Below the pieces are notes generated by a model. It was not told where the DNA came from and did no database searches. It saw nothing but the letters and a program-made list of their open reading frames with translations. Positions 5,820 to 57,179 of a stretch of 64,000 nucleotides of DNA are shown here, piece by piece. The stretch's first letter is position 1. Every line of letters begins with the position of its first letter. This DNA comes from an uncultured Blastocatellia bacterium. GTDB taxonomy: Bacteria > Acidobacteriota > Blastocatellia > Chloracidobacteriales > Chloracidobacteriaceae. The stretch is from positions 62,001 through 126,000 of the forward strand of contig CALGZC010000004.1 in NCBI GenBank assembly GCA_937934745.1, written 5' to 3'. The position numbers and the translations under genes were made by a program.

Positions 5820-7181
5820 GTGGAAGCCATGGTCAATGATTTAATGGTTGCCCAAAACTTTACGATCTGTGGGGCAGGCCCGGCCGGGACCTTAGCTGCG
5901 TTGTACTTAGCCCGGCAAGGTTATCAGGTGACACTCTATGAACGGCACCCCGATCTACGGACCGCGCCTGTTCCACGCGGACGCTCCATCAACCTGGCCC
6001 TGTCAACCCGTGGACTCCGCGCCTTAGCTGCGGTCGGCCTCGATCCGGTCATCCGTCCGCTGGCCATCCCTATGCGCGGGCGCATGATCCACAGCCCGCA
6101 GGGAGAATTGACCTTCCAGCCCTATGGGCGCACGCCAGACGAAACGATTTTCTCCATTTCGCGGCATCGGTTAAATCATGCGCTTCTTGACGCGACGACC
6201 GGCTGGCCAAATCTGGACATCCATTTTTCCTCACGTTGCGTCGGGCTGGATCTGGCTTCCATGACGCTTGACATTGAGGATCCTTTGACGCGCACCGTCC
6301 GACCGGTGCGCGCGCAAACCGTCGTCGGGGCAGACGGTGCGTTTTCGGCCGTCCGGCAGGCGCTACAGCGTACTGACCGCTACGATTACGCGCAGACCTT
6401 TCTGCCCCACGGCTACAAAGAACTGACCATTCCTGCGCTCCCCGACGGCTCACACGCCCTGCCCAAAAACTACCTTCATATTTGGCCGCGGCAGGACTTC
6501 ATGCTCATTGCGCTGCCGAATCTGGACGGGTCATTTACCTGCACCCTGTTTCTCGCTTATGAAGGCGCGGAAAGCTTTGCCCAACTGACCGACGATGACG
6601 CCATCCGCCGGTTTTTTGACCGCCATTTCCCGGACGTGACACCGTTGATGCCGACGCTGCTGGAGGATTTCAAGCACAACCCAACCGGCTCAATGGTCAC
6701 GATTCGGTGTTTTCCGTGGCAATATGCCGGGCGTGTTGTCCTGATAGGTGACGCAGCCCATGCCGTCGTACCGTTTTATGGACAAGGCATGAATGCCTCA
6801 TTTGAGGATTGCTTCATTCTCGATGAGTGCTTGCGGCGGCACAACGGCGACACTCGGATGGCGTTTCGTGACTACCAGCAGCGACGTAAGGTGAACACAG
6901 ATGCACTGGCCGAACTGGCGTATGACAACTACCTTGAAATGCGCGCCAAGGTAGCATCGCCCTGGTTTTTATTCCGACGACGCCTGGAGTACCTCATGTC
7001 TGCCGTTCTGGGAGACCGTTTTTTGCCCCTCTACACCATGGTGTCATTTACGCACATTCCCTACGCCGAAGCGCGTGCGCGCGCCAGGCGGCAAGAGCAG
7101 TGGCTGGACGCAGGTTTGCTCCTCGGGGGGCTGCTCGGTTGTTTTTTCCTGCTCTGGTTACTATGGCAGTGGGTTCGATGA
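5820..7181 (+). CDS. kmo: Kynurenine 3-monooxygenase
   Basis: This FAD-dependent aromatic hydroxylase converts L-kynurenine to 3-hydroxykynurenine with NADPH and O2 (tryptophan breakdown or de novo quinolinate/NAD synthesis). The 453-residue protein has the Rossmann GAGPAGTLAALYLA motif near residue 18, the conserved RGRSINLALSTRG segment, the VVGADGAFSAVR motif, and the diagnostic GDAAHAVVPFYGQGMNASFE block. The C-terminus (about 431-453) is a strongly hydrophobic helix ending in Arg, reminiscent of the membrane anchor of mitochondrial KMO. No other kynurenine-pathway gene is adjacent. A second ATG lies 9 bases in. Function is confident; the exact start is less so. Confidence 0.92.
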   Translation: MEAMVNDLMVAQNFTICGAGPAGTLAALYLARQGYQVTLYERHPDLRTAPVPRGRSINLALSTRGLRALAAVGLDPVIRPLAIPMRGRMIHSPQGELTFQPYGRTPDETIFSISRHRLNHALLDATTGWPNLDIHFSSRCVGLDLASMTLDIEDPLTRTVRPVRAQTVVGADGAFSAVRQALQRTDRYDYAQTFLPHGYKELTIPALPDGSHALPKNYLHIWPRQDFMLIALPNLDGSFTCTLFLAYEGAESFAQLTDDDAIRRFFDRHFPDVTPLMPTLLEDFKHNPTGSMVTIRCFPWQYAGRVVLIGDAAHAVVPFYGQGMNASFEDCFILDECLRRHNGDTRMAFRDYQQRRKVNTDALAELAYDNYLEMRAKVASPWFLFRRRLEYLMSAVLGDRFLPLYTMVSFTHIPYAEARARARRQEQWLDAGLLLGGLLGCFFLLWLLWQWVR

Positions 7182-7266
7182 CACGCCACGTTCGCTTCGG
7201 TTTTCCCGACGCTTCATCGGCGCGCGAAGCCGCACGGACGTATACCGCGCAGCCCACGGCTGGGGC

Positions 7267-7290
7267 GCGCGAACGTAGGCGCGAACGTAG
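7267..7290. repeat. Two perfect 12-bp tandem copies
   Basis: The unit GCGCGAACGTAG occurs twice head to tail in the short spacer between kmo and atpZ, ending just past the atpZ stop codon. It is one of several such duplications in spacers of this window. Confidence 0.8.
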
Positions 7291-7291
7291 G

Positions 7292-7522
7292 CTAGTTCAG
7301 CCGTCGCCACAAGCGATACAGCAGCCGTCCGCTACTGACCAACGCGGAGAAGCCGAGCAGGAGCACCCACAGCGGCGCGGTGTCAAGCCATTGGTCAAGC
7401 CAATACCCGACAAGAAGCGACCCCACGAACGTCATCGGCAAGCCTAGGGCGAAACCGGCGGCCGTCAGCATTCGAGCGCGGGCAGCCGCCTCTTCAGTTT
7501 CCGAGTCCTGTGGCGACAGCAT
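7292..7522 (-). CDS. AtpZ/AtpI-family small membrane protein
   Basis: This 76-residue protein has two predicted membrane helices (about residues 20-42 and 50-68) separated by a short GYWLDQWLDT turn, the pattern of AtpZ (ATP synthase gene-1 type proteins thought to help c-ring assembly or Mg/Ca transport). No atp genes follow; the next gene downstream is kmo on the opposite strand, so it is an orphan. Its ATG is only 19 bases past the 3' end of tRNA-Ser on the same strand, so it may share that promoter. Confidence 0.65.
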   Translation of the reverse strand: MLSPQDSETEEAAARARMLTAAGFALGLPMTFVGSLLVGYWLDQWLDTAPLWVLLLGFSALVSSGRLLYRLWRRLN

Positions 7523-7541
7523 TAGGAACAGGCCTGGGAAG

Positions 7542-7627
<86 letters not shown>

Positions 7628-7764
7628 GCAATGATGGCTCAACTATAGCCTGCCGATCTGCGCCCGGCAAGGTGGCGGGAATGAAGTTGCGCTACAATGC
7701 CTGCTCAGTGTTGAGAACCCCTGTTCTAAGCAGTTTCAATCACTCGAGTTGAAGGGAAGGCGTT

Positions 7765-8070
7765 ATGGCCCAGGATGATCGAAATCGCTTTGAATATCGG
7801 ATTGGCGATGAAGTTTCCTTCGCTGCCGGGCATGGGATGCAGTATGGCGAAATCGTGCGGATTGTGACCCCCGGCCCCGAAGGTGCCGTTGAGATTCAGT
7901 GGGAGGATGGTCGGCGCGAAATTAAGAAAACCCGTGACCGCGCAATTCGTTTGCTCCGGCGCGCAACCGGCGTCAGTGAATTGGACGAACGGCGCGGTGA
8001 ACGCCGGCGCAGCTTGGACAACGAAATTGCTGAGGTGCGGCGCAGCGATGTCCGCCGCCGGCACGGATGA
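7765..8070 (+). CDS. Small basic protein with SH3/KOW-like N-terminus, unknown function
   Basis: The protein has 101 residues. The first 60 (FEYRIGDEVSF, GEIVRIV, VEIQWEDGRREI) have the alternating beta-strand look of a small SH3, KOW or Tudor-like barrel. The last 35 are highly charged (DERRGERRRSLDNEI) and probably helical. It has a TACAAT -10-like box about 70 bases upstream. Its stop overlaps the miaA start by 4 bases (ATGA), so it is translated together with miaA, which hints at an RNA-related role. I do not recognise the family. Confidence 0.75.
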   Translation: MAQDDRNRFEYRIGDEVSFAAGHGMQYGEIVRIVTPGPEGAVEIQWEDGRREIKKTRDRAIRLLRRATGVSELDERRGERRRSLDNEIAEVRRSDVRRRHG

Positions 8071-9047
8071 CGACGCGCCCGATCCCCGTCATTGTTGGCC
8101 CAACTTGCTCCGGGAAAAGCGCCCTGGGCATCGCGGTCGCCCGCGCCCTGGAGGGGGAGATTATCAATCTGGATTCCATTCAAGTCTATCGCGGACTTGA
8201 CGTTGCGACGGCAAAGGTGCCACCGGCCGTTCGCGCCGCCATTCCCCACCATCTCATTGATGTCGCCGCGCCGACCGAGCACTATACCGCCGGCCGATAT
8301 GCGCGTGAAGCCGCCGTTTGCCTGGCTGACATTGAAGCACGTGGACGGACGGCCGTTTTCGTCGGAGGGACAGGGCTCTACCTTGACGCCCTACGCGGGT
8401 GTTTGTTCACCGACGAAACCCCGACGGATTTGCGCTTGCGGACACGACTCAAAACCATCCGTGACCGGCGCGGCGCCGCGTGGCTGCACCGAATGCTGAC
8501 ACGCCTTGACCCGGTGATGGCGGCGCGTCTGTCCCCGAATGATTGGTCGCGGACCATGCGGGCGCTCGAAGTGTTGTTCCAGTCCAAGCAATCACTCTTC
8601 GAACGGCAGCGCAATGTACCGCCGCCGCCGGCCTTTGCAGCGCGGATGCGGATGATTGTTCTCTCGCCGCCGCGCGCGGCACTCTACGCCCGCATCAATG
8701 CGCGGGTGGAGACCATGGTTGCCGCCGGCTTGCTCGATGAAATCCGCCGTCTGCTGGCGGCGGGTATTCCACCGGATGCCGAAGCTTTTCAGGCGCATGG
8801 CTACCGGCGCTTTCTGGAATACTTGCGTGGCGAACGCACTTATGCATCCGCCGTCGAGCAAATGAAAACCGATACCCGCCGCTACGCCAAACGGCAGCTT
8901 TCCTGGTGGCGACGCGAACCGGCAGCCGAGTGGTTTGAAGGGTTTGGTGACGATCCGGCCGTCCAGGCGCAGGTGATTGCCGCCCTGCGCCGTCCGGTGG
9001 TGTATCCGGTGCGCACCCTTCAGGACGACCAAATCACCCTGGTATAG
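8067..9047 (+). CDS. miaA: tRNA dimethylallyltransferase MiaA
   Basis: MiaA adds a dimethylallyl group from DMAPP to A37 of tRNAs that read UNN codons, such as the tRNA-Ser (TGA) just upstream. The 326-residue length is normal. Motifs seen: P-loop GPTCSGKSALGIAVA (about 10-24), INLDSIQVYRGLDVATAK, HHLIDVAAPTEHYTAG, the FVGGTGLYLDAL motif, and the C-terminal tRNA-binding part with KRQLSWWRR. It is coupled to the small upstream gene and followed after 8 bases by a carotenoid desaturase gene, so one transcript may carry all three. Confidence 0.95.
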   Translation: MTTRPIPVIVGPTCSGKSALGIAVARALEGEIINLDSIQVYRGLDVATAKVPPAVRAAIPHHLIDVAAPTEHYTAGRYAREAAVCLADIEARGRTAVFVGGTGLYLDALRGCLFTDETPTDLRLRTRLKTIRDRRGAAWLHRMLTRLDPVMAARLSPNDWSRTMRALEVLFQSKQSLFERQRNVPPPPAFAARMRMIVLSPPRAALYARINARVETMVAAGLLDEIRRLLAAGIPPDAEAFQAHGYRRFLEYLRGERTYASAVEQMKTDTRRYAKRQLSWWRREPAAEWFEGFGDDPAVQAQVIAALRRPVVYPVRTLQDDQITLV

Positions 9048-9055
9048 TCCAGGGT

Positions 9056-10684
9056 ATGCATCCCCGTGAAGCACACAGCCCAGAATTCGATGTCGTGGTC
9101 GTCGGCGCCGGTGTGGCGGGTCTGACCGCGGCCGCTTTGCTCCAACGCGATGGCTACCGCACGTTGTTGCTTGAGGCCCATGATAAGGCAGGCGGCTGCG
9201 CGGGGTATTTTTTTCACAAGGGATACACCTTTGACGCCGGCGCAACTGTCCTGATGGGGCTGGACGCCAGCGGCTTGCACACCCAGGTGTTGGCACGCCT
9301 CGGGGCGACCGTACCGGAAAGCACGCTCATCGAGTGCGTCCCGGTCCACCTGCCCGACCGAACGGTGAACATCACCCATGACCAGGCGGTATGGACGCAT
9401 GAGCGCGTTGCACGATTCGCCCGCAACGCTGCTGAAGCCGAGCGCCTTCAGGCATTCTGGCAGTTAGTGGATCGAACGGCAGATGCCATGTGGGCGGCAA
9501 CGGCGAAGCTACCGGCGCTGCCACTCCGCCGCTGGCGCGACGTGGTCGCGAATGTACGCTTAGTTTCCCCTAGTTTCATCGGCGTTACGCCGTATTTGTT
9601 TTCAACCGTTGGGGATGTTTTGCGTCGTCACCGGTTGGAGGACAATGCACCGCTGCGGGCCTTTCTGGATGGTCTGCTGTTGATCACGGCACAGGAAACG
9701 GCGGACCGTGCACCGTTTCTGAACGGCGCTGCTGGGCTAGACATTTACCGCCATGGCATTCGCCGCGCCCGCGGCGGGATGAAAGCCTTTATCAAGGCGC
9801 ACGTTGAGGCGTTTTGTGCCCTGGGTGGCGTGTTGAAGCTGCGGCAGCGTGTGACACGCCTGACCCCGCAGCCCAGAGGCGGTTACGTTGTGGAAACCGA
9901 GCGCGGTTTGACCGTGCATGCGCCGCGTGTTGTGGTCAACCTGCCGCTGTGGAACATCCCAGGCCTGGTCGGCACGAAGCTGGCAGCGCCGCTGGCGCGT
10001 TCGCTGGCAAAGGCCGGTAAAGGCTGGGGTGCGTTTACGCTCTATCTCGGTGTCCGCGCCGACGTGATTCCTGCTAATGCGCCTCTCAACCACCAGGTTT
10101 TGCTGCGGTACGGTGAGTCGTTTGCAGACGGCAACAGCGCATTTCTGAGTCTGAGCGAGCCGGACGACCGGGCCAGTGCCCCGCCGGGGCGGCGAACACT
10201 CAACGTTTCGACGCATACCGAAGTTGACGCGTGGTGGAATGCCGATGCCGAAACCTACGCGGCGCGGCGTGCGGCCGTTGCCGAGCGCCTGTTGACCGCC
10301 GTTGCGCGTGTCTTCCCTGACATTCGCGCCGGCATCGAATGCCTGCTACCAGGGACGCCGGTGACCTTTGCGCGTTATACGGGACGCGCCCAAGGGATGG
10401 TCGGCGGTTTGCGGACGACCATCTGGAACAGCAACCTATTTGGGATCGGTGTCCGTGATGTTGGGCTCCCGAACCTCTGGATTGTCGGTGATACGGTCTT
10501 TCCCGGGCAGGGAACACCGGCCTGCGCCCTCTCCGGCATCAATGCCTGGCGGGACATCACGGGCTGCTGGACGCTTCAGGCACCCCTTGTCAAACCCCAT
10601 CCGTTGCGTGCGCCGTCCTCTGCTGCACTGACCCCTGAAACGCCGCTATCCGGACGGCGCGCTGAAGGCAAGGCAGTTGTCTAG
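9056..10684 (+). CDS. CrtD-like carotenoid C-3',4' desaturase (FAD-dependent)
   Basis: This 542-residue FAD amine-oxidase-fold enzyme belongs to the phytoene-desaturase superfamily. It has the dinucleotide motif VVGAGVAGLTAAALL (about 14-28), the GGCAGYFFHKGYTFDAGAT block typical of cyanobacterial-type CrtD/CrtH/CrtO enzymes, and a C-terminal flavin motif NLWIVGDTVFPGQGTPA. The cyanobacterial CrtD-like blocks favour a 3',4'-desaturase. Chloracidobacterium is reported to make deoxyflexixanthin-type carotenoids, which need such a step. CrtO ketolase and CrtH isomerase are the alternatives. The C-terminal 40 residues are a low-complexity tail. It follows miaA by 8 bases. Confidence 0.7.
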   Translation: MHPREAHSPEFDVVVVGAGVAGLTAAALLQRDGYRTLLLEAHDKAGGCAGYFFHKGYTFDAGATVLMGLDASGLHTQVLARLGATVPESTLIECVPVHLPDRTVNITHDQAVWTHERVARFARNAAEAERLQAFWQLVDRTADAMWAATAKLPALPLRRWRDVVANVRLVSPSFIGVTPYLFSTVGDVLRRHRLEDNAPLRAFLDGLLLITAQETADRAPFLNGAAGLDIYRHGIRRARGGMKAFIKAHVEAFCALGGVLKLRQRVTRLTPQPRGGYVVETERGLTVHAPRVVVNLPLWNIPGLVGTKLAAPLARSLAKAGKGWGAFTLYLGVRADVIPANAPLNHQVLLRYGESFADGNSAFLSLSEPDDRASAPPGRRTLNVSTHTEVDAWWNADAETYAARRAAVAERLLTAVARVFPDIRAGIECLLPGTPVTFARYTGRAQGMVGGLRTTIWNSNLFGIGVRDVGLPNLWIVGDTVFPGQGTPACALSGINAWRDITGCWTLQAPLVKPHPLRAPSSAALTPETPLSGRRAEGKAVV

Positions 10685-10782
10685 GTTGTTGTTCAAGCTT
10701 GCTGCCGGAATCCCACAGCGCCGTCGCCGGCAGCAGGTGGGCCGCAGAGGTGTGTTCTGGGTTCAGACCGGCGAGAGAAGGG

Positions 10783-11958
10783 CTAGTTCGGACGCTCCTG
10801 CAGCGTGACGTTGATCGTCAGCGATTGCCCGGCGCGAATCACCGTGACCGGCACGGTGTCACCGATCTTTTTGTCTCGCAGCGACCGGTATAAATCCTCG
10901 TTTGACCGAATAGGCGTGTCGCCAACCTGAACAATGACGTCGCCGGTCACAATTTGCCCACCGCGCTGAAGCACGCGGTCACTTGCGTACAATCCTGCCT
11001 GGGCAGCCGGCCCGCGCGGTGCGATGCCCGTCAGAATCAGACCTTCGCTGACAGGTAAGTTGAGTCGTTGCGCCAGTCGTGCGTTGAGCTGATAGGTGTT
11101 TGTAATTCCCAGCCAGGGCCGGCGAACGCGGCCGTACTCAATCAGATCGGGAATGATTTGCTTGGCGACATCCACCGGCACGGCAAAGCCGATGCCGACG
11201 CTGCCGCCGCGTGGTGAGTAAATCGCCGTGTTGATCCCGATCATTTCACCGGCCGAGTTAAGCAGTGGACCACCCGAGTTGCCGGGGTTAATGGAAGCAT
11301 CAGTTTGAATGACATTTTCAATCGTTCGCCCGTTTTCGCTGCGCAGCGGCCGCCCCAATGCACTGATGATGCCCGATGTCAGAGTTTGATTCAGGCCGAA
11401 CGGATTGCCGATGGCGAGAACCTTTTGCCCAACCCGCAGATTGCGTGACGACCCAAGTGGAACAACCCGCAGACGCTCTGCCGGAGCCTGAATGCGGATA
11501 ATGGCTAAGTCGTTGTCAGGGTCAGCGCCGACAATCGTTGCCGGGTAGGAGGTATTGTCCGACAGTGTCACGTCGAGCCGGCTAGCGCCTTCGATGACAT
11601 GGTAGTTCGTGAGGATATGGCCCTTGGTATCAATAATCGAACCCGATCCGCTCCCCTGCTGAGGGTAGGCTCCGAAGAACAGGTCCTCAACGAAGGACGT
11701 GGTGTTGATGTTGACAACGCCAGGACTCACACGTTCATAAACCGCGATGTTGTTGCGCTCATCTGCCTCGAGCTGTTGCGGCGGGGGGGCGGCCTCCGGT
11801 TTTGGTTCTGAGTTGACGGGAGAGGGCAGCGCACGCTTTGTCGTCTTCGCATCAAGCCACTTGGCCGTGAAGTAAGCCGCAACCGTAATCCCCCCGCCGC
11901 CGATGATGGAAGCAGCAATGACCAACCAGAGAACTTGGCGGATGGAAAGGCGAAGCAT
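10783..11958 (-). CDS. HtrA/DegP-type trypsin-like serine protease with PDZ domain
   Basis: The protein has 391 residues and is a membrane-anchored quality-control protease of the periplasm. An N-terminal helix (about 8-30) anchors it, followed by a Pro/Glu-rich linker. The trypsin fold carries His120 (ILTNYHVIEG), Asp150 (DPDNDLAII) and Ser228 (INPGNSGGPLL). One PDZ domain (about 285-390) closes the protein. I chose the ATG at 11958 because it places the anchor at the N-terminus; a longer frame to 12207 would run into the upstream gene and adds non-coding-like sequence. It lies 19 bases after the SDR gene on the same strand, so the two are probably one operon. Confidence 0.93.
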   Translation of the reverse strand: MLRLSIRQVLWLVIAASIIGGGGITVAAYFTAKWLDAKTTKRALPSPVNSEPKPEAAPPPQQLEADERNNIAVYERVSPGVVNINTTSFVEDLFFGAYPQQGSGSGSIIDTKGHILTNYHVIEGASRLDVTLSDNTSYPATIVGADPDNDLAIIRIQAPAERLRVVPLGSSRNLRVGQKVLAIGNPFGLNQTLTSGIISALGRPLRSENGRTIENVIQTDASINPGNSGGPLLNSAGEMIGINTAIYSPRGGSVGIGFAVPVDVAKQIIPDLIEYGRVRRPWLGITNTYQLNARLAQRLNLPVSEGLILTGIAPRGPAAQAGLYASDRVLQRGGQIVTGDVIVQVGDTPIRSNEDLYRSLRDKKIGDTVPVTVIRAGQSLTINVTLQERPN

Positions 11959-11977
11959 CGTCGGAGCGTCAGATGAA

Positions 11978-12802
11978 TCAGATGAAGAAGTCAGGGAGCA
12001 GCTCGGCCGTTGGGTCCACCGCATAAGGGGTGAAATCGGTAACGCCGGCATGGCGCAGTACGTCCTCGTCAATGAAAAAGTTGCCCGTGCAAGTGCGACT
12101 TGATTGGGTGAGGATCGCATAAGCGGCATCGGCCATGATCTCCGGCTTGCGACAACGGCGCATTGCCTCCAGTCCACCGAGGAGATTGTTGACGGCCGCC
12201 GTGGCAATGGCCGTCCGCGGCCACAAGGCGTTGACCGCCACCCCTTGGGAACGAAACTCTTCGGCCATGCCCAGGACGCACATACTCATACCGTATTTGG
12301 CCATCGTGTACGCGACGTGGGGCGCAAACCACCGCGCCTCCATGTTGAGCGGTGGTGAAATGTTGAGAATGTGTGGGTTAGCAGCTTTGAAGAGGTGCGG
12401 CAGGCAAGCTTGTGAGCAAACAAACGTCCCGCGCGTGTTGATACGGTGCATTAGATCATAGCGCTTCAGGGGCGTTTCCAACGTTGGCGTTAAGCTGATA
12501 GCACTCGCGTTATTGACTAAAATATCAATCCCGCCGAACGTCTCGACCGTGCGTGTCACCGCCTCTGCGACACGCTGTTCATCCTGGATATCCACAACGA
12601 GCGGGAGGGCCCGCCCGCCGGCCGCTTCGACTTCGGCTGCCGCCGTGTAGACCGTGCCAGGCAGTTTCGGGTGTGGTTCGGCTGTCTTGGCAGCAATTGC
12701 GATATTCGCTCCATCGCGCGCGGCCCGCAGGGCTATCGCCAGACCAATGCCACGACTGGCACCGGTGATGAAAAGCGTTTTTCCGGCTAAAGGTGCTGTC
12801 AT
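11978..12802 (-). CDS. HSDL2-like short-chain dehydrogenase
   Basis: The protein has 274 residues and the classical SDR layout: cofactor motif ITGASRGIG near residue 13, NNASA motif, and the YTMAKYG catalytic Tyr/Lys with an upstream LNISPPLN that matches the SPPLN signature of hydroxysteroid dehydrogenase-like 2 proteins. The VNALWPRTAI motif also fits that group. Bacterial relatives are often annotated as citronellol/citronellal or fatty-alcohol dehydrogenases, so a lipid or isoprenoid alcohol is a plausible substrate (inference). The usual SCP2 domain of animal HSDL2 is absent. It is first in a likely operon with the HtrA protease. Confidence 0.85.
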   Translation of the reverse strand: MTAPLAGKTLFITGASRGIGLAIALRAARDGANIAIAAKTAEPHPKLPGTVYTAAAEVEAAGGRALPLVVDIQDEQRVAEAVTRTVETFGGIDILVNNASAISLTPTLETPLKRYDLMHRINTRGTFVCSQACLPHLFKAANPHILNISPPLNMEARWFAPHVAYTMAKYGMSMCVLGMAEEFRSQGVAVNALWPRTAIATAAVNNLLGGLEAMRRCRKPEIMADAAYAILTQSSRTCTGNFFIDEDVLRHAGVTDFTPYAVDPTAELLPDFFI

Positions 12803-12991
12803 CGGCTTGTCTCCCTCAAGCTTATATGCCTTAGTGCGGCGTACCGGTCACTTTGCGGCAGCCGGCGATGGCTTGTCTTCTAGCATAACGCCCCAGAAAA
12901 AAGGCCATCTCTTACACAGAGCTGCATGTGTTAGCATGAAAACACGAATGTTCCTTACTCAGCCCGTTGAAAGCAAGGGGAGGACGCAGCT

Positions 12992-13114
12992 ATGGAAGAC
13001 ATCAGCAAGGTGGCCTGGGCTTGGTTCGGCGTATTGCTGGCGATCTGCGTTATTGGTGCATTTGGCAACTACATACCAAAGTTGTTTGTCAAAATGCTCA
13101 TGTTTTTGAACTAA
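12992..13114 (+). CDS. 40-residue single-helix membrane peptide
   Basis: The frame encodes 40 residues starting MEDISKVAWAWFGVLL and ending KMLMFLN, with one hydrophobic helix (about residues 7-26) and a short amphipathic Lys-containing tail. A strong ribosome site (AAGGGGAGG) lies about 9 bases upstream, and there is a plausible promoter region with no overlapping gene on either strand. Type I reaction centres, including the Chloracidobacterium one, carry very small one-helix subunits. Size, topology and the neighbouring phytol-kinase gene make such a role conceivable, but the sequence alone does not show it. Confidence 0.6.
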   Translation: MEDISKVAWAWFGVLLAICVIGAFGNYIPKLFVKMLMFLN

Positions 13115-13280
13115 AGCACGTCCGGTTCACATCCCGGTCTCTCCCGGCCCTGAGAGGCAACCATTGTGTCGCGCATGCGACAGAAAACGGTTTGCCAGGC
13201 AGGCGTTGGTTTCAGTAGGTTGAAGGCAGGCGGCCAGCATGTCCCCCTGCCTTTTCCTTTTTGAGTTGAGAGTGCGCAGG

Positions 13281-14639
13281 ATGGAAGTTTTTGATTATTC
13301 CTGGCGCGCGGCGCTGCCGGTCGGAGTGGTAGACAGTTCATCAGAAGCGCGGCGACGGTTGGTCCACATCGGCATGGGCCTCTTTGCACTGATCATCGCG
13401 TCGTTCTGGCAAACCCTGCTTATGGGGTTGTCGGGGCTTGCGCTGGCGTGGGTCTTGCCCAAATGGATGCCCAGTTTACTCCGCCCCCATGAACAAGTGC
13501 AGGGCTATTCAGTCGGCGTCATTGCTTATCCGGCTGCCGTCGTCGCGCTGACGCTTTTGTTTCCAAGGGATTTGTGGATTGTTGCCGGTGGGTGGGCGAT
13601 GATGGCCTATGGTGACGGCATGGCGGTCGTCTGCGGCCGGGGATTGCGCGGTCCACGTTTGTGGTGGAATCCACGGAAAAGTCTGTGGGGAACACTGGGC
13701 TTTGTGCTGTTTGGCTGGTTTGGGACGTTGGTGACGGTGCTTGTGGTCGGTGGGCATCCCTTCACACCGCTGGGCTTAGCGGCGGTTGTGCTGGCGGCGG
13801 CCGTGGTAGCCGCGCTGTTAGAGTCGCTCCCCTATGACATCTGTGACAACCCATTGGTGGCGGGAGCGGCGGCACTGGTGATGTTGTTGGCCGTGCAGAT
13901 TGACCAGAGTGCGTGGCTTGCCGCGCAAGCTGACGTTGTTGCACGGTTGCCTGTTGCCATCGGCCTTGCCGCCATCCTGGCCTTACTGGCCCGAGCGACC
14001 AAGTCGGTGGATTGGTCAGGCGCCCTGACCGGGGCTGTCTTTGCCTTCATCCTCTACACGGCATTAGGTGTGGTGGGTGTTGCCGGACTGATGGCCTTCT
14101 TCATTGTTGGGACGGTGGCTTCAAAGGTTGGCTACGAGAAAAAACGCGCCAAAAAAACGGCGCAGGCAGTTCGCACCTGGCGCAATGCGGTAGCCAACGC
14201 GGGGGTTGCGGCGCTGTGTGCGCCGTTTGTCGTCTTGACGCCACGCCCTGACCTATTCACCGTCGCCGTGCTGGGCGCGTTTGCCGCTGCTGCGTCAGAC
14301 ACCGTCGCCGGTGAAATCGGACGTGTTTATGGGGGCACACCCTATTCGATTGTCACTCTGCGCCGGGCGCAGGTTGGTGACAACGGGGCAGTCTCGGCAG
14401 TCGGTCTGCTGACGGGACTGGCGATTGCCGTCGCCTTTGGTGGCCTGGCCTACCTAGCGACAGACCCTATCCTGCATAGGGCGGTGTGGTGTATTGCCGT
14501 TGGAGGCATGGTCGGCAACCTGTGTGATAGCTTCCTCGGCGCAACGGCTGAAAATGCCGGCTATCTGGACAATGAAGCCGTCAACTTTGCCTGCACATTG
14601 AGCGGAGCCATACTTGCCGCCTCGCTGTTTGCATTATGA
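13281..14639 (+). CDS. Fused phytol kinase (VTE5-like) and phytyl-phosphate kinase (VTE6/DUF92-like)
   Basis: The 452-residue polytopic membrane protein is two enzymes in one chain. Residues 1-210 match CTP-dependent phytol/dolichol kinases: EARRRLVHIGMG, YGDGMAVVCGR (110-120), NPRKSLWGTLGF (130-141), and ESLPYDICDNPL (181-192). Residues 225-452 match DUF92/VTE6: DWSGALTGAVF, ASDTVAGEIG (338-347), NLCDSFLGA (413-421), NEAVNFACTLSGA (431-443). Together they would turn free phytol or geranylgeraniol into the diphosphate, recycling (bacterio)chlorophyll tails for new chlorophyll or quinone. A longer start at 13239 is possible. The next gene overlaps by 4 bases. Domain calls are firm; the substrate is inferred. 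Confidence 0.85.
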   Translation: MEVFDYSWRAALPVGVVDSSSEARRRLVHIGMGLFALIIASFWQTLLMGLSGLALAWVLPKWMPSLLRPHEQVQGYSVGVIAYPAAVVALTLLFPRDLWIVAGGWAMMAYGDGMAVVCGRGLRGPRLWWNPRKSLWGTLGFVLFGWFGTLVTVLVVGGHPFTPLGLAAVVLAAAVVAALLESLPYDICDNPLVAGAAALVMLLAVQIDQSAWLAAQADVVARLPVAIGLAAILALLARATKSVDWSGALTGAVFAFILYTALGVVGVAGLMAFFIVGTVASKVGYEKKRAKKTAQAVRTWRNAVANAGVAALCAPFVVLTPRPDLFTVAVLGAFAAAASDTVAGEIGRVYGGTPYSIVTLRRAQVGDNGAVSAVGLLTGLAIAVAFGGLAYLATDPILHRAVWCIAVGGMVGNLCDSFLGATAENAGYLDNEAVNFACTLSGAILAASLFAL

Positions 14640-16667
14640 AAAGGGAAACAGCTGAAAAAAACGGCGTAGCAGGTACGCTACGGCGGCGGAAGATGGCGCT
14701 TCTCAAAAACCAGGACCGGCTTCTCCAGGAGCTGGGTACAGGGGCGTTTGGTCAGACTTACCTTGCGGAGGATACCCATGCTCCGTCAGGTCGGCGCTGT
14801 GTCATCAAGCGCCTGACGTGGAACTACGATCCAGACTTAGCGCCCATCATACGTGAGCGGTTCAAGCGCGAGGCAGCGCTGCTGGAAAAGCTCGGGCGTG
14901 GCTCGCAGGGCAGCATCCTGGAAGCTGTACGCTTACTTTGTCGAAAACAATCAGTATTATTTTGTCCAGGAGTGGATTGACGGCGAAACACTGACCCAGA
15001 GGCTACGGTGCCGCAGGACGGTTGTCAGAACCGGACTTGGTTACGATCCTGCTCGGTGCTCTGCGGGTCCTCGATTACATCCACACACTCCCGACGCCCA
15101 TCATTCACCGCGACATCAAGCCGGACAACATCATGATACGCCGCACCACCAATCAGGTGGTGCTCATTGATTTCGGTGTGGTCAAGGAAGTGACGGCGGT
15201 TGATAGCAGCGTTGCGACGAAGAGTCTTGTCGTCAGCACGAGCGGCTACATCCTGGTAGAGCAGATTGCCGGCCGGCCAACCTTCGCCAGTGACCTTTAT
15301 GCGCTGGGCATGACGGCGATTACGCTGGCAACTGAGATGCACCCTCATGAACTGGTGGACCCGGTCAGCGGCGAGGTCGTCTGGCGAACGGCGGCACCGC
15401 AGATCGGTTCGGACTTGGCAACGGTCATTGATGTGGCGGTGTGCCGTGACAGCCGTGAGCGATACCAGACGGCACGCGCATTTGCCTTGGTAATCCAGGC
15501 GGCGTTGAGCAGCAGGAAAGCGTAGGGGGCAACCGGATCGGATCGGCATGCGTTGACGCCGGCGGCAACGGTCTCGGCGGTGTCGACCCCAACTTCCGCC
15601 TTGCTCCCGGCCATGACCTCAGAGCCATCGGAGCTACCACTTGCCTCGAGTAGTCTGCCACCCGGTGGTCAGTGTGACACAACCATTAGGCACGACCTTC
15701 GCTCCCAGCCGAATGGCACCCAGGGGGTGCGCCTGTTGAAGCGACTGACATTGCTCCCGGCCATGGGGCCCGCTGTTGGTGTTGCTGACAGTTGGGGGGG
15801 CGATCTGGTGGGCCCTATCCTTGACTTCCCACAAGCCGGTTGTGGCCACCAAAGACAAGTCGTTAGCTGCAGAGAAAGGTACAGCGGAAGACAAGCCGGC
15901 GAGGGTCAACATCCCAACTGTGTCAGAATCTGATGATCCACCTGTGGTTGGGGGGGCCGATGAGGTCAGCCAGGGGCCGCTGCCAGCCCCACCTGGGATG
16001 ATCTTCATTGCCGGTGGAGAATTTCTGATGGGCAATGATGACGGTGACAAATCAGAAAAACCGAGTCACTTGGTTGCCGTCCGGCCGTTTTTTTATAGAC
16101 AAGTGCGAAGTCACCAACGCGGAATACAAGGCGTTTGTCAGGGCAACGAATCGCAAGGAACTGCCACCGGATTAGGTGGACGGCACATATCCGCGCGGGA
16201 TGGACACCCACCCTGTGGCAAATGTGTCCTGGCAGGATGCCTATGACTATGCCGCTTGGGCCGGCAAACGCCTTCCGACGGAGGAAGAGTGGGAGTTTGT
16301 CGCACGGGGGGTCGAGGGACGACGGTACCCGTGGGGGAATCAGTTCGATCAACGTTACCTCAACAGCGAGGAAAGTCGGATCGGGCACACCAGCACCGTC
16401 GGCAACTTTCCAGAAGGTGCAACGCCAGAAGGCGTTCTCGACTTGGCCGGCAATGTCGCAGAGTGGACGGACTCGGATGACAAAGCCTACGCTGGCAGCG
16501 ACTACGAACCCGAGTCTGGAGCCAAGATTGTACGTGGTGGAGCCTTTTCACTCTCCAAGAAGTGTGCCAACGCCACCAAGCGCACGCAGGTGCCACCCGA
16601 CACACGCGATCCGGGCCTTGGTTTTCGTTGCGTCAAGGATGTCCCTCAAGTGGGTCGAAAATCATGA
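14636..16667 (+). pseudogene. Broken Ser/Thr kinase-transmembrane-FGE gene
   Basis: Read across frames this is one gene of the kinase-TM-FGE type. The kinase start (ELGTGAFGQTYLAEDTH) is in one frame, then shifts near 14925 to the frame of AYFVENNQYYFVQEWIDGE, then near 15010 to the frame with HRDIKPDNIM and DFGVVKE. A TAG stop at 15523 interrupts the linker, a third shift near 15755 precedes the membrane helix, a fourth lies at a run of seven T near 16090, and another TAG follows ELPPD in the FGE domain. The end ([32 protein letters not shown]) is intact. It is either a dead gene or one with several sequence errors. It overlaps the phytol-kinase stop by 4 bases. Confidence 0.85.
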
Positions 16668-55761: not shown

Positions 55762-56499
55762 TCAGCAGCCGTCCGCCATCCTGGGCTTCTGACCGGTGTG
55801 AAGCGCGACAATGCCGCCGGACAGATTGCGCCAGCGCACGTCACAGAAGCCAGCCGCCGTCAGGTGGTTCGCCAGCGTCGCCTGGTCTGGAAAGAATTGC
55901 ACCGAGGCCGGCAGGTAAGTGTACGCATAACCTGACCGGGATACTGCGTTGCCAATCCAGGGCAGAATCTGTGTGAAGTAGAGTCCAAACAACCATTTAA
56001 GACCAGGGATAACCGGGTGCGAAAACTCTAGGATCGCAGCCTTGCCGCCCGGTTTAAGGACGCGGTGCATTTCCGCCAGCGCCCGGTCGAGGTCGACCAC
56101 ATTGCGGATGCCAAAGGCCACCGTCACGACATCGAAGGCTGCGTCGGGAAAGGGCAGCGCCAGTGCATCCCCCGCCAGGAGGCAAACAGGTAGCCCGTTT
56201 CGGTGGACTTTCGCCAGACCACGCACGAGCATCGGCTGACAGAAATCCACGCCGATAGTCGGCGCAAGGCGCCCGAGCTCAAGTGTGAGATCGGCCGTAC
56301 CGCAGCACACATCGAGTGCCATCGCGCCGGAACGGCGCAACATCTCCGCTACTTCCTGGACGGCAGCGCGTCGCCAGTACTGATCGATGTTGAGTGATAA
56401 CCAGCGGTTGAGTTGATCGTAAGTCGGCGCGATGCCGGCAAACATCGCCTGAATGCGCCGCGCTTTTTCCGCACCCTGAAAGGCAAGGGGATTTTCCAT
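55762..56499 (-). CDS. ubiE: Demethylmenaquinone/ubiquinone methyltransferase UbiE/MenG
   Basis: The protein has 245 residues: the start FAGIAPTYDQLNRWLSLNID and the SAM motifs LDVCCGTADLTLELG, GDALALPFPDAAFDVVTVAFG, IRNVVDLDRALAEMHRVLKPGG (conserved NVxD...REMxRVLKPGG pattern). It does the final C-methylation of menaquinone, the electron carrier expected in Acidobacteriota. Its neighbour on the opposite strand is the E2-like gene; no men genes are adjacent. Confidence 0.95.
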   Translation of the reverse strand: MENPLAFQGAEKARRIQAMFAGIAPTYDQLNRWLSLNIDQYWRRAAVQEVAEMLRRSGAMALDVCCGTADLTLELGRLAPTIGVDFCQPMLVRGLAKVHRNGLPVCLLAGDALALPFPDAAFDVVTVAFGIRNVVDLDRALAEMHRVLKPGGKAAILEFSHPVIPGLKWLFGLYFTQILPWIGNAVSRSGYAYTYLPASVQFFPDQATLANHLTAAGFCDVRWRNLSGGIVALHTGQKPRMADGC

Positions 56500-56609
56500 A
56501 TAAGGCTGATGACTACACCGCTGGGGGGAACGATGCCGTTTTTCGATAGCCGGGATTCGGGCTACAATGGGCGTACTTTACCGGCAAAGCGATTCTGGGG
56601 AAATGGAGG

Positions 56610-57179
56610 ATGACGGCTCTTATGGCGACGCCGGACGATGTTCGCCGCGCGCGGCTTGCAGCCGATTACGAAGAAATGCGCACCATCCGGGGCGACTACA
56701 TCCACTGGTACAACAACGACTTTCCGGCCACGGACTACGTTGTGACACTGCGGGTGCGCAGCTACATCAGCCCACAGATGACCCGCGACGAACATCAGAT
56801 TCGGATCCTGTTGTCGCCGAATCATCCCTTTGAGAAGCCGACCGTGATGATGCATGGCATGACGCCCATCTTCCACCCGCACGTGTGGCCCGACGGAAAG
56901 ATCTGCATCGGACACTGGGATTTTCGCGAAGGTTTGGCCTCGTTTGTCATCAAGCTGGCACGGCTGTTTCAGTTCGATCCCCAGCTTATCGATCCGTACA
57001 GTATTGCCAACTACAAAGCAGCCGACTGGTTTTACGCCAACCCATCCCTGTTTCCCTGCGACCAGTCGCAACTGCCAATTCCTGGGGAAAAGATGACCCA
57101 CACCTTTGTGGTCAAGCGGGTGACGCCGCCGCGCGCGCCTGACCGTGGTGCCGGTGGGCGTTTTCAGATTCGCCCGTAA
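56610..57179 (+). CDS. E2 ubiquitin-conjugating-enzyme-like protein (bacterial UBC fold)
   Basis: The 189-residue protein reads like an E2. An N-terminal helix (RRARLAADYEEMRTIRGDY) is followed by beta strands, then HPFEKPTVMMHG (the YPFxxP element), then IFHPHVWPDGKICIGHWD, where HPH stands for HPN and Cys99 is at the place of the E2 active-site cysteine. A C-terminal helical part (ASFVIKLARLFQF, IDPYSIANYKAADWF) follows. No E1, ubiquitin-like protein, deubiquitinase or nuclease gene is near, so it is not a visible CBASS/Bil-type cassette. A start at 56622 is equally good. A 13-bp triplication begins inside its 3' end. Confidence 0.75.
   Translation: MTALMATPDDVRRARLAADYEEMRTIRGDYIHWYNNDFPATDYVVTLRVRSYISPQMTRDEHQIRILLSPNHPFEKPTVMMHGMTPIFHPHVWPDGKICIGHWDFREGLASFVIKLARLFQFDPQLIDPYSIANYKAADWFYANPSLFPCDQSQLPIPGEKMTHTFVVKRVTPPRAPDRGAGGRFQIRP

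Follow-up and report, generated by a model that had tools for sequence, protein, structure and literature searches.

The window, a stretch of 64,000 nucleotides from a genome that its named relatives (88-90% protein identity) place in the genus Chloracidobacterium, carries a gene for a protein resembling the ubiquitin-conjugating (UBC-type) E2 enzymes. The open reading frame described in the original prediction, with its elements HPFEKP (residues 72-77 in the 189-aa numbering) and HPHVWPDGKIC (residues 89-99), is present exactly as stated, and so are the flanking genes, ubiE on one side and a geranylgeranyl-reductase-like gene on the other. The gene for ubiE also adjoins E2 in other genera of the family (loci L021, L022 and L028). 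A GGAGG sequence directly abuts the first ATG of the reading frame, and a second ATG sits 12 nt further on. The E2 homologues start at M(A/G)TP. Because of these homologue starts and the spacing from GGAGG, translation probably begins at the second ATG, which makes the catalytic residue Cys95 of a 185-aa protein. The coordinates of all features are given in Table 1.

Table 1. Features of the E2 locus in the window and of the partner genes elsewhere in the same genome
Feature	Position	Strand	Description
E2 (UBC-like) conjugating-enzyme gene	56622..57179	+	185 aa; probable start ATG 56622; basis: open reading frame, homologue starts, Pfam UQ_con, PDB E2 matches, pN/pS
Longer E2 reading frame of the original prediction	56610-57179	+	189 aa
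GGAGG, probable ribosome-binding site for ATG 56622	56605..56609	+	read from the sequence
Active-site stretch HPHVWPDGKIC	56874..56906	+	HPH 56874-56882; catalytic Cys codon TGC 56904-56906; aligned to the UBE2W active site
E2 C-terminal tail	57087..57176	+	30 aa; two F-x-[IVL]-[KR] copies with variable linker: FVVK 57105-57116, FQIR 57162-57173
ubiE/menG methyltransferase	55762..56499	-	neighbour outside the system; Pfam
E1	contig 17:17148-18356		419 aa, ThiF-type
Small membrane protein with zinc-type motif	contig 17:18487-18807		between E1 and Ubl
Ubl	contig 17:18847-19092		81 aa
JAB (JAMM peptidase)	contig 38:97955-98719		

Each of the 14 genomes examined from the order has a homologue of E2, with 61-92% identity. 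H89, P90, H91 and C99 are invariant in every one of them, the catalytic Cys always lying 8 residues past the HPx motif, and a check for orthologues that lack Cys99 found none. The pN/pS ratio within the genus is approximately 0.1 and the gene is under strong purifying selection. The original prediction had allowed that E2 may have lost its conjugation activity; the invariant HPH and Cys and the strength of this selection speak against that.

The Pfam family UQ_con matches E2 with an E value of 7.4e-5, which is under Pfam's own cut-off of 27 bits, and matches nothing else in the genome. The best matches in the PDB are E2s, with UBE2W first (E 8e-4; 3e-4 in a profile search), and the likeness to UBE2W extends over no more than approximately 42 residues surrounding the active site. 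These matches and the conserved Cys agree with the assignment to UBC-type E2s made originally. Structure prediction gave a divided answer. The model has the element order of UBC, a helix, four strands and a helix, and the best 50 Foldseek matches listed were all E2 entries or complexes containing an E2; however, the confidence of the model was low (pLDDT 48.7, from a shallow alignment), the TM-scores were approximately 0.25, and VIA-align gave a Z of 3.6 at most, with none reaching 5 and with E2s mixed among unrelated proteins. The fold comparison is weak because the shallow alignment gave a poor model. Taken together, the data suggest a likeness to UBC that is weak but consistent and beyond chance, and a putative UBC fold that is supported mainly by sequence.

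Partner genes across the order

The original prediction noted that no partner genes lie near E2 and proposed that it could act with a distant E1. Whole-genome searches for E1, JAB and ubiquitin-like (Ubl) genes found all three, with E1 and Ubl on contig 17 and JAB on contig 38, while the E2 of the window is on contig 4. The lack of neighbouring partners is therefore correct and a distant E1 exists, but E2 is not functionally solitary, and a genome without E1, JAB or Ubl is rejected.

E2, Ubl and JAB are each present in every one of the 14 genomes, and E1 is found in 13. The genome in which E1 was not found is a draft, and its Ubl contig (3.1 kb) ends 240 bases upstream of Ubl. In the sister family, E1, a small membrane protein with a zinc-type motif, Ubl, E2 and JAB form one co-directional cassette (L024 and L025); at L026 a further gene separates E2 from JAB, and at L023 JAB has moved away from the cassette. 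In G007, G008 and G009, which belong to the family of the window but not to its genus, the E1-zinc protein-Ubl genes are at one site and E2-JAB at another, E1 not being seen in G008; the E2 of the E2-JAB pair adjoins ubiE in G007 and G009. In Chloracidobacterium, finally, E1-zinc protein-Ubl, E2 and JAB are at three separate places. The components that are not encoded together in the genome of the window are thus encoded together in the sister family, in agreement with the proposal of a distant E1 partner. The cassette has been broken up stepwise, from one piece in the sister family to two in the intermediate genera and three in Chloracidobacterium. The parts co-occur within a single clade, so that their co-occurrence does not count as independent evidence across the tree; the cassette that they share carries more weight.

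Ubl is a single 81-aa domain in all 14 genomes, and the domain always ends in IFLNTRGG. Three of the proteins stop exactly at GG and 11 carry 1-21 extra residues, so that processing is implied. The single lysine, K15, is invariant (14/14). Ubl is far better conserved than E1 or JAB, and its pN/pS within the genus is 0.02-0.15. In Pfam the SUMO-like family Rad60-SLD scores above the cut-off and ubiquitin below it, and an AF2 model (pLDDT 70) resembles ubiquitin, NEDD8, SUMO and the Caldiarchaeum ubiquitin, with TM-scores of 0.7-0.8. E1 matches ThiF (E 1e-48) and carries an invariant RYDSCE, which may be the site of the catalytic Cys. JAB is above the Pfam cut-offs for both Prok-JAB and JAB and retains the JAMM motif GWYHTHPGFGVFMSGTD. 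There was no convincing match to Ubl in 44 other genomes of the class (one weak match, E 0.07), and a Ubl profile run over 396 genomes of the phylum found members of the order only, plus one weak match.

Other gene clusters with some of the same component classes were seen in passing. L112 (G219:C1:540001-560000, positions 8264-10727), from another acidobacterial genome, is a compact E1-Ubl-E2-JAB cassette whose E2 has HPHVWPNGTVC and whose Ubl ends in LEGGLR; genes that by eye resemble type VI secretion genes follow shortly after, from 11698 on. L088 (G017) and L089 (G041), from other families of the class, are distantly related operons of E1, double-Ubl (236 and 197 aa), E2 and JAB. At L027 (G015, 6600-11603) a Ubl-UBC fusion of 301 aa is clustered with genes for an E1 and a JAB-like protein and with a TIR-like gene, in a different arrangement that is probably of the defence type. 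L113 (G274, 9865-15391) holds genes for Ubl, E1 and JAB together with those for a UBC protein of the HPN type and a membrane protein with a RING-like zinc finger, and resembles the RING operons credited to Burroughs 2011.

The zinc-motif protein and a recurring short motif

The small membrane protein whose gene lies between those for E1 and Ubl occurs in every one of the 14 genomes; in G008 the gene is found at the edge of a contig. The protein carries a hydrophobic segment towards its N-terminus and the motif R-C-E-[IV]-C-H-Q-x-D...C-x-R-C (CxxCH...CxRC) towards its C-terminus. Unexpectedly, a profile of this protein showed that numerous further proteins encoded by these genomes carry its motif; the 36-aa domain, unnamed until now, has the pattern F-x-I-K...RCE[IV]CHQxDxF...TGxCxRC. 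Each Chloracidobacterium has two zinc-motif proteins and G010 has five, and the larger genomes range from 13 up to 46 or more; with the 36-aa profile no more than 19 candidates per genome were scored, which makes its counts lower bounds. The carriers mostly have hydrophobic segments, and outside the domain they consist of ankyrin, thioredoxin-like or unassigned parts. The motif was absent from the 44 other genomes of the class in a profile search, and the 36-aa profile had matches in 8 of 8 members of the order and in none of the 388 other genomes sampled from the phylum, a co-distribution that concerns one clade and is not by itself independent evidence. Against Pfam, no family matched the domain above its cut-off. 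The Cys/His pattern of the motif suggests putative metal binding. A cytochrome was considered for the small membrane protein on account of CxxCH (Cytochrome_C7, E 0.02, not significant) and rejected, the second motif being mostly CxRC without a following His; a zinc knuckle is the preferred assignment. Homology ties the domain family to the Ubl operon and suggests a putative role for it there.

In G007 and G009, three to four genes for zinc-domain membrane proteins lie in tandem (L131, L133, L134 and L135), as if expanding by local duplication. The second zinc-domain protein of the window's genome (L129, 4573-5241, G000:C24) is directly followed, with a 1-base overlap, by an HD-domain-like gene, and the same order is found at L130 (G004).

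The 30-aa C-terminal tail of E2 was absent from the original description. The motif F-x-[IVL]-[KR] was seen first and tested afterwards, so that its figures are descriptive: it occurs twice in the tail of 13 of the 14 homologues, with linkers of differing length, and once in the remaining one; two copies arise in 0-0.2% of shuffled tails; JAB begins with M-[TK]-F-x-I-K in 10 of 10 (one called start lies earlier); 5 of 10 E1s have the motif near the N-terminus; and the background is 10 of 211 proteins within the first 9 aa and 6 of 211 within the last 30. F166, K169 and F185 of the tail are invariant among the 14 homologues, and a strand resembling the motif opens the zinc domain. We propose that F-x-[IVL]-[KR] is a putative common docking site, most simply for Ubl.

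A predicted conjugation pathway and its relation to known systems

On these data E2 very probably belongs to a complete pathway of ubiquitin-like conjugation, core to the order, the cassette of which came apart in Chloracidobacterium. Conjugation itself is predicted from the presence of the parts, their motifs and co-conservation, the break-up of the cassette and purifying selection. The JAMM peptidase would trim the extended Ubl to ...LNTRGG. The 419-aa ThiF-type E1, to judge from its family and the motifs present, would then adenylate Gly81 and hand Ubl on as a thioester to Cys95 of E2 (Cys99 in the 189-aa numbering). With its UBE2W-like HPH in place of HPN, E2 could perhaps move Ubl to an amino group, and by analogy N-terminal tagging of proteins by an E2 of the HPH type is possible. 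The operon position of the small membrane protein, together with its related family, suggests that it might bring E2~Ubl to the membrane or pick targets, and JAB may finally take the tag off. None of the known types of E3 was recognized and no 20S proteasome alpha/beta pair was evident; on length and score only, the matches to the proteasome family appear to be HslV and a relative of approximately 250 aa.

The same component classes (E1, E2, JAB and Ubl) make up anti-phage defence systems such as Bil, Bub or CBASS, and there are weak PADLOC matches to the E2, E1-E2, BilD and JAB models. However, the system is single-copy and found throughout the order without gaps, its genes are dispersed over the chromosome and E2 is without any match on plasmids or phages, three observations that rule out a defence island as the best account. 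Ubl is also far more conserved than E1 or JAB, and a single Ubl domain with a single-ThiF E1 is unlike the description of Bil (PMC11354881). We consider a defence role improbable. Still less probable is that Ubl and E1 are a sulfur-carrier pair of the ThiS/ThiF or MoaD/MoeB type, with the E2-like protein in some other, non-conjugating role. E1 is of the ThiF/MoeB type and JAB proteins do go with some sulfur-carrier operons (PMC1779556), but every genome also retains an E2 whose HPH and Cys are invariant, Ubl is like SUMO and ubiquitin in Pfam and ends in RGG, and the genome has a second, separate ThiF-family gene on contig 56. The break-up of the cassette in three stages could also be the mark of a degenerate relic, dispersed and decaying, with an inactive E2. 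This is very unlikely, as pN/pS is low for both E2 and Ubl, the catalytic residues and RGG are invariant and all parts are kept in every genome examined, bar the one at a contig end.

Returning to a working conjugation pathway, a more specific form of it is tentative and in our judgement rather doubtful: an order-wide, housekeeping, eukaryote-like ubiquitin/SUMO pathway with a family of membrane adaptors, in which the zinc domain would be an E3 or a receptor/substrate module and F-x-[IVL]-[KR] a SIM-like docking site for Ubl. In bacteria, conjugation of the ubiquitin-like type is elsewhere reported from sporadic operons or from phage defence; a system that is vertically inherited, order-wide, dispersed and equipped with a near-frozen Ubl ending in RGG would be evidence for tagging of the ubiquitin type as ordinary cell biology in a bacterium. 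The zinc-domain family, restricted to the same order, is a source of candidate E3s or targets. Chloracidobacterium has been cultivated, so that GG-remnant mass spectrometry could give direct access to the modified proteome.

In prokaryotes, E1-E2-Ubl-JAB(-RING) operons (Iyer 2006, Burroughs 2011) are reported from Acidobacteria, Planctomycetes, Actinobacteria and the archaeal Caldiarchaeum. They have the four component classes in common with the present system, and the cassette of the sister family has the order E1-Ubl-E2-JAB. In contrast with them, the system described here is order-wide and dispersed and includes a membrane zinc-motif protein with its multi-protein domain family. By eye no RING was seen in the cassettes of the order, where the small CxxCH...CxRC membrane protein holds that position; a RING-like gene is found in the distant cassette L113. 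Sets of E1, E2, Ubl and JAB are already known in bacteria (PMC1779556, PMC4197634), and the prokaryotic operons are described as scattered in their distribution, close relatives often being without them (PMC4197634).

Bil likewise has Ubl, E2, JAB and E1. Its BilA has two Ubl domains, its BilB a CEHH motif and its BilD two adenylation domains (PMC11354881), whereas here Ubl is single-domain and E1 single-ThiF; no tandem Ubl, CEHH or double adenylation domain was found, the single-domain Ubl and the lack of CEHH being the departures from Bil that were put to a test. The CEHH spacing (C, E+6, H+8, H+13) is absent from the E2 of the window, which has F, E and F at +6, +8 and +13 from Cys99. UBE2W is the only human E2 with a His in the HPH position and has N-terminal specificity (PMC9527308, PMC4630614). 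It shares with the bacterial E2 HPH in place of HPN and the spacing to the Cys, and UBE2W, too, has a flexible C-terminus; the bacterial E2, in contrast, has tail motifs of its own, and the likeness is possibly convergence. A parallel with SUMO and SIM lies in the SUMO-like best Pfam score of Ubl and in the short hydrophobic-basic strand motif of E2, JAB and the zinc proteins; F-x-[IVL]-[KR] differs from the classical SIM, and its binding to Ubl is putative. We found no account of the system in Chloracidobacterium in the papers searched; an orthologue may have been listed earlier, for example in Burroughs 2011. In summary, in comparison with the known systems, the order-wide conservation, the break-up of the cassette, and the membrane zinc-motif partner with its family appear to be new.
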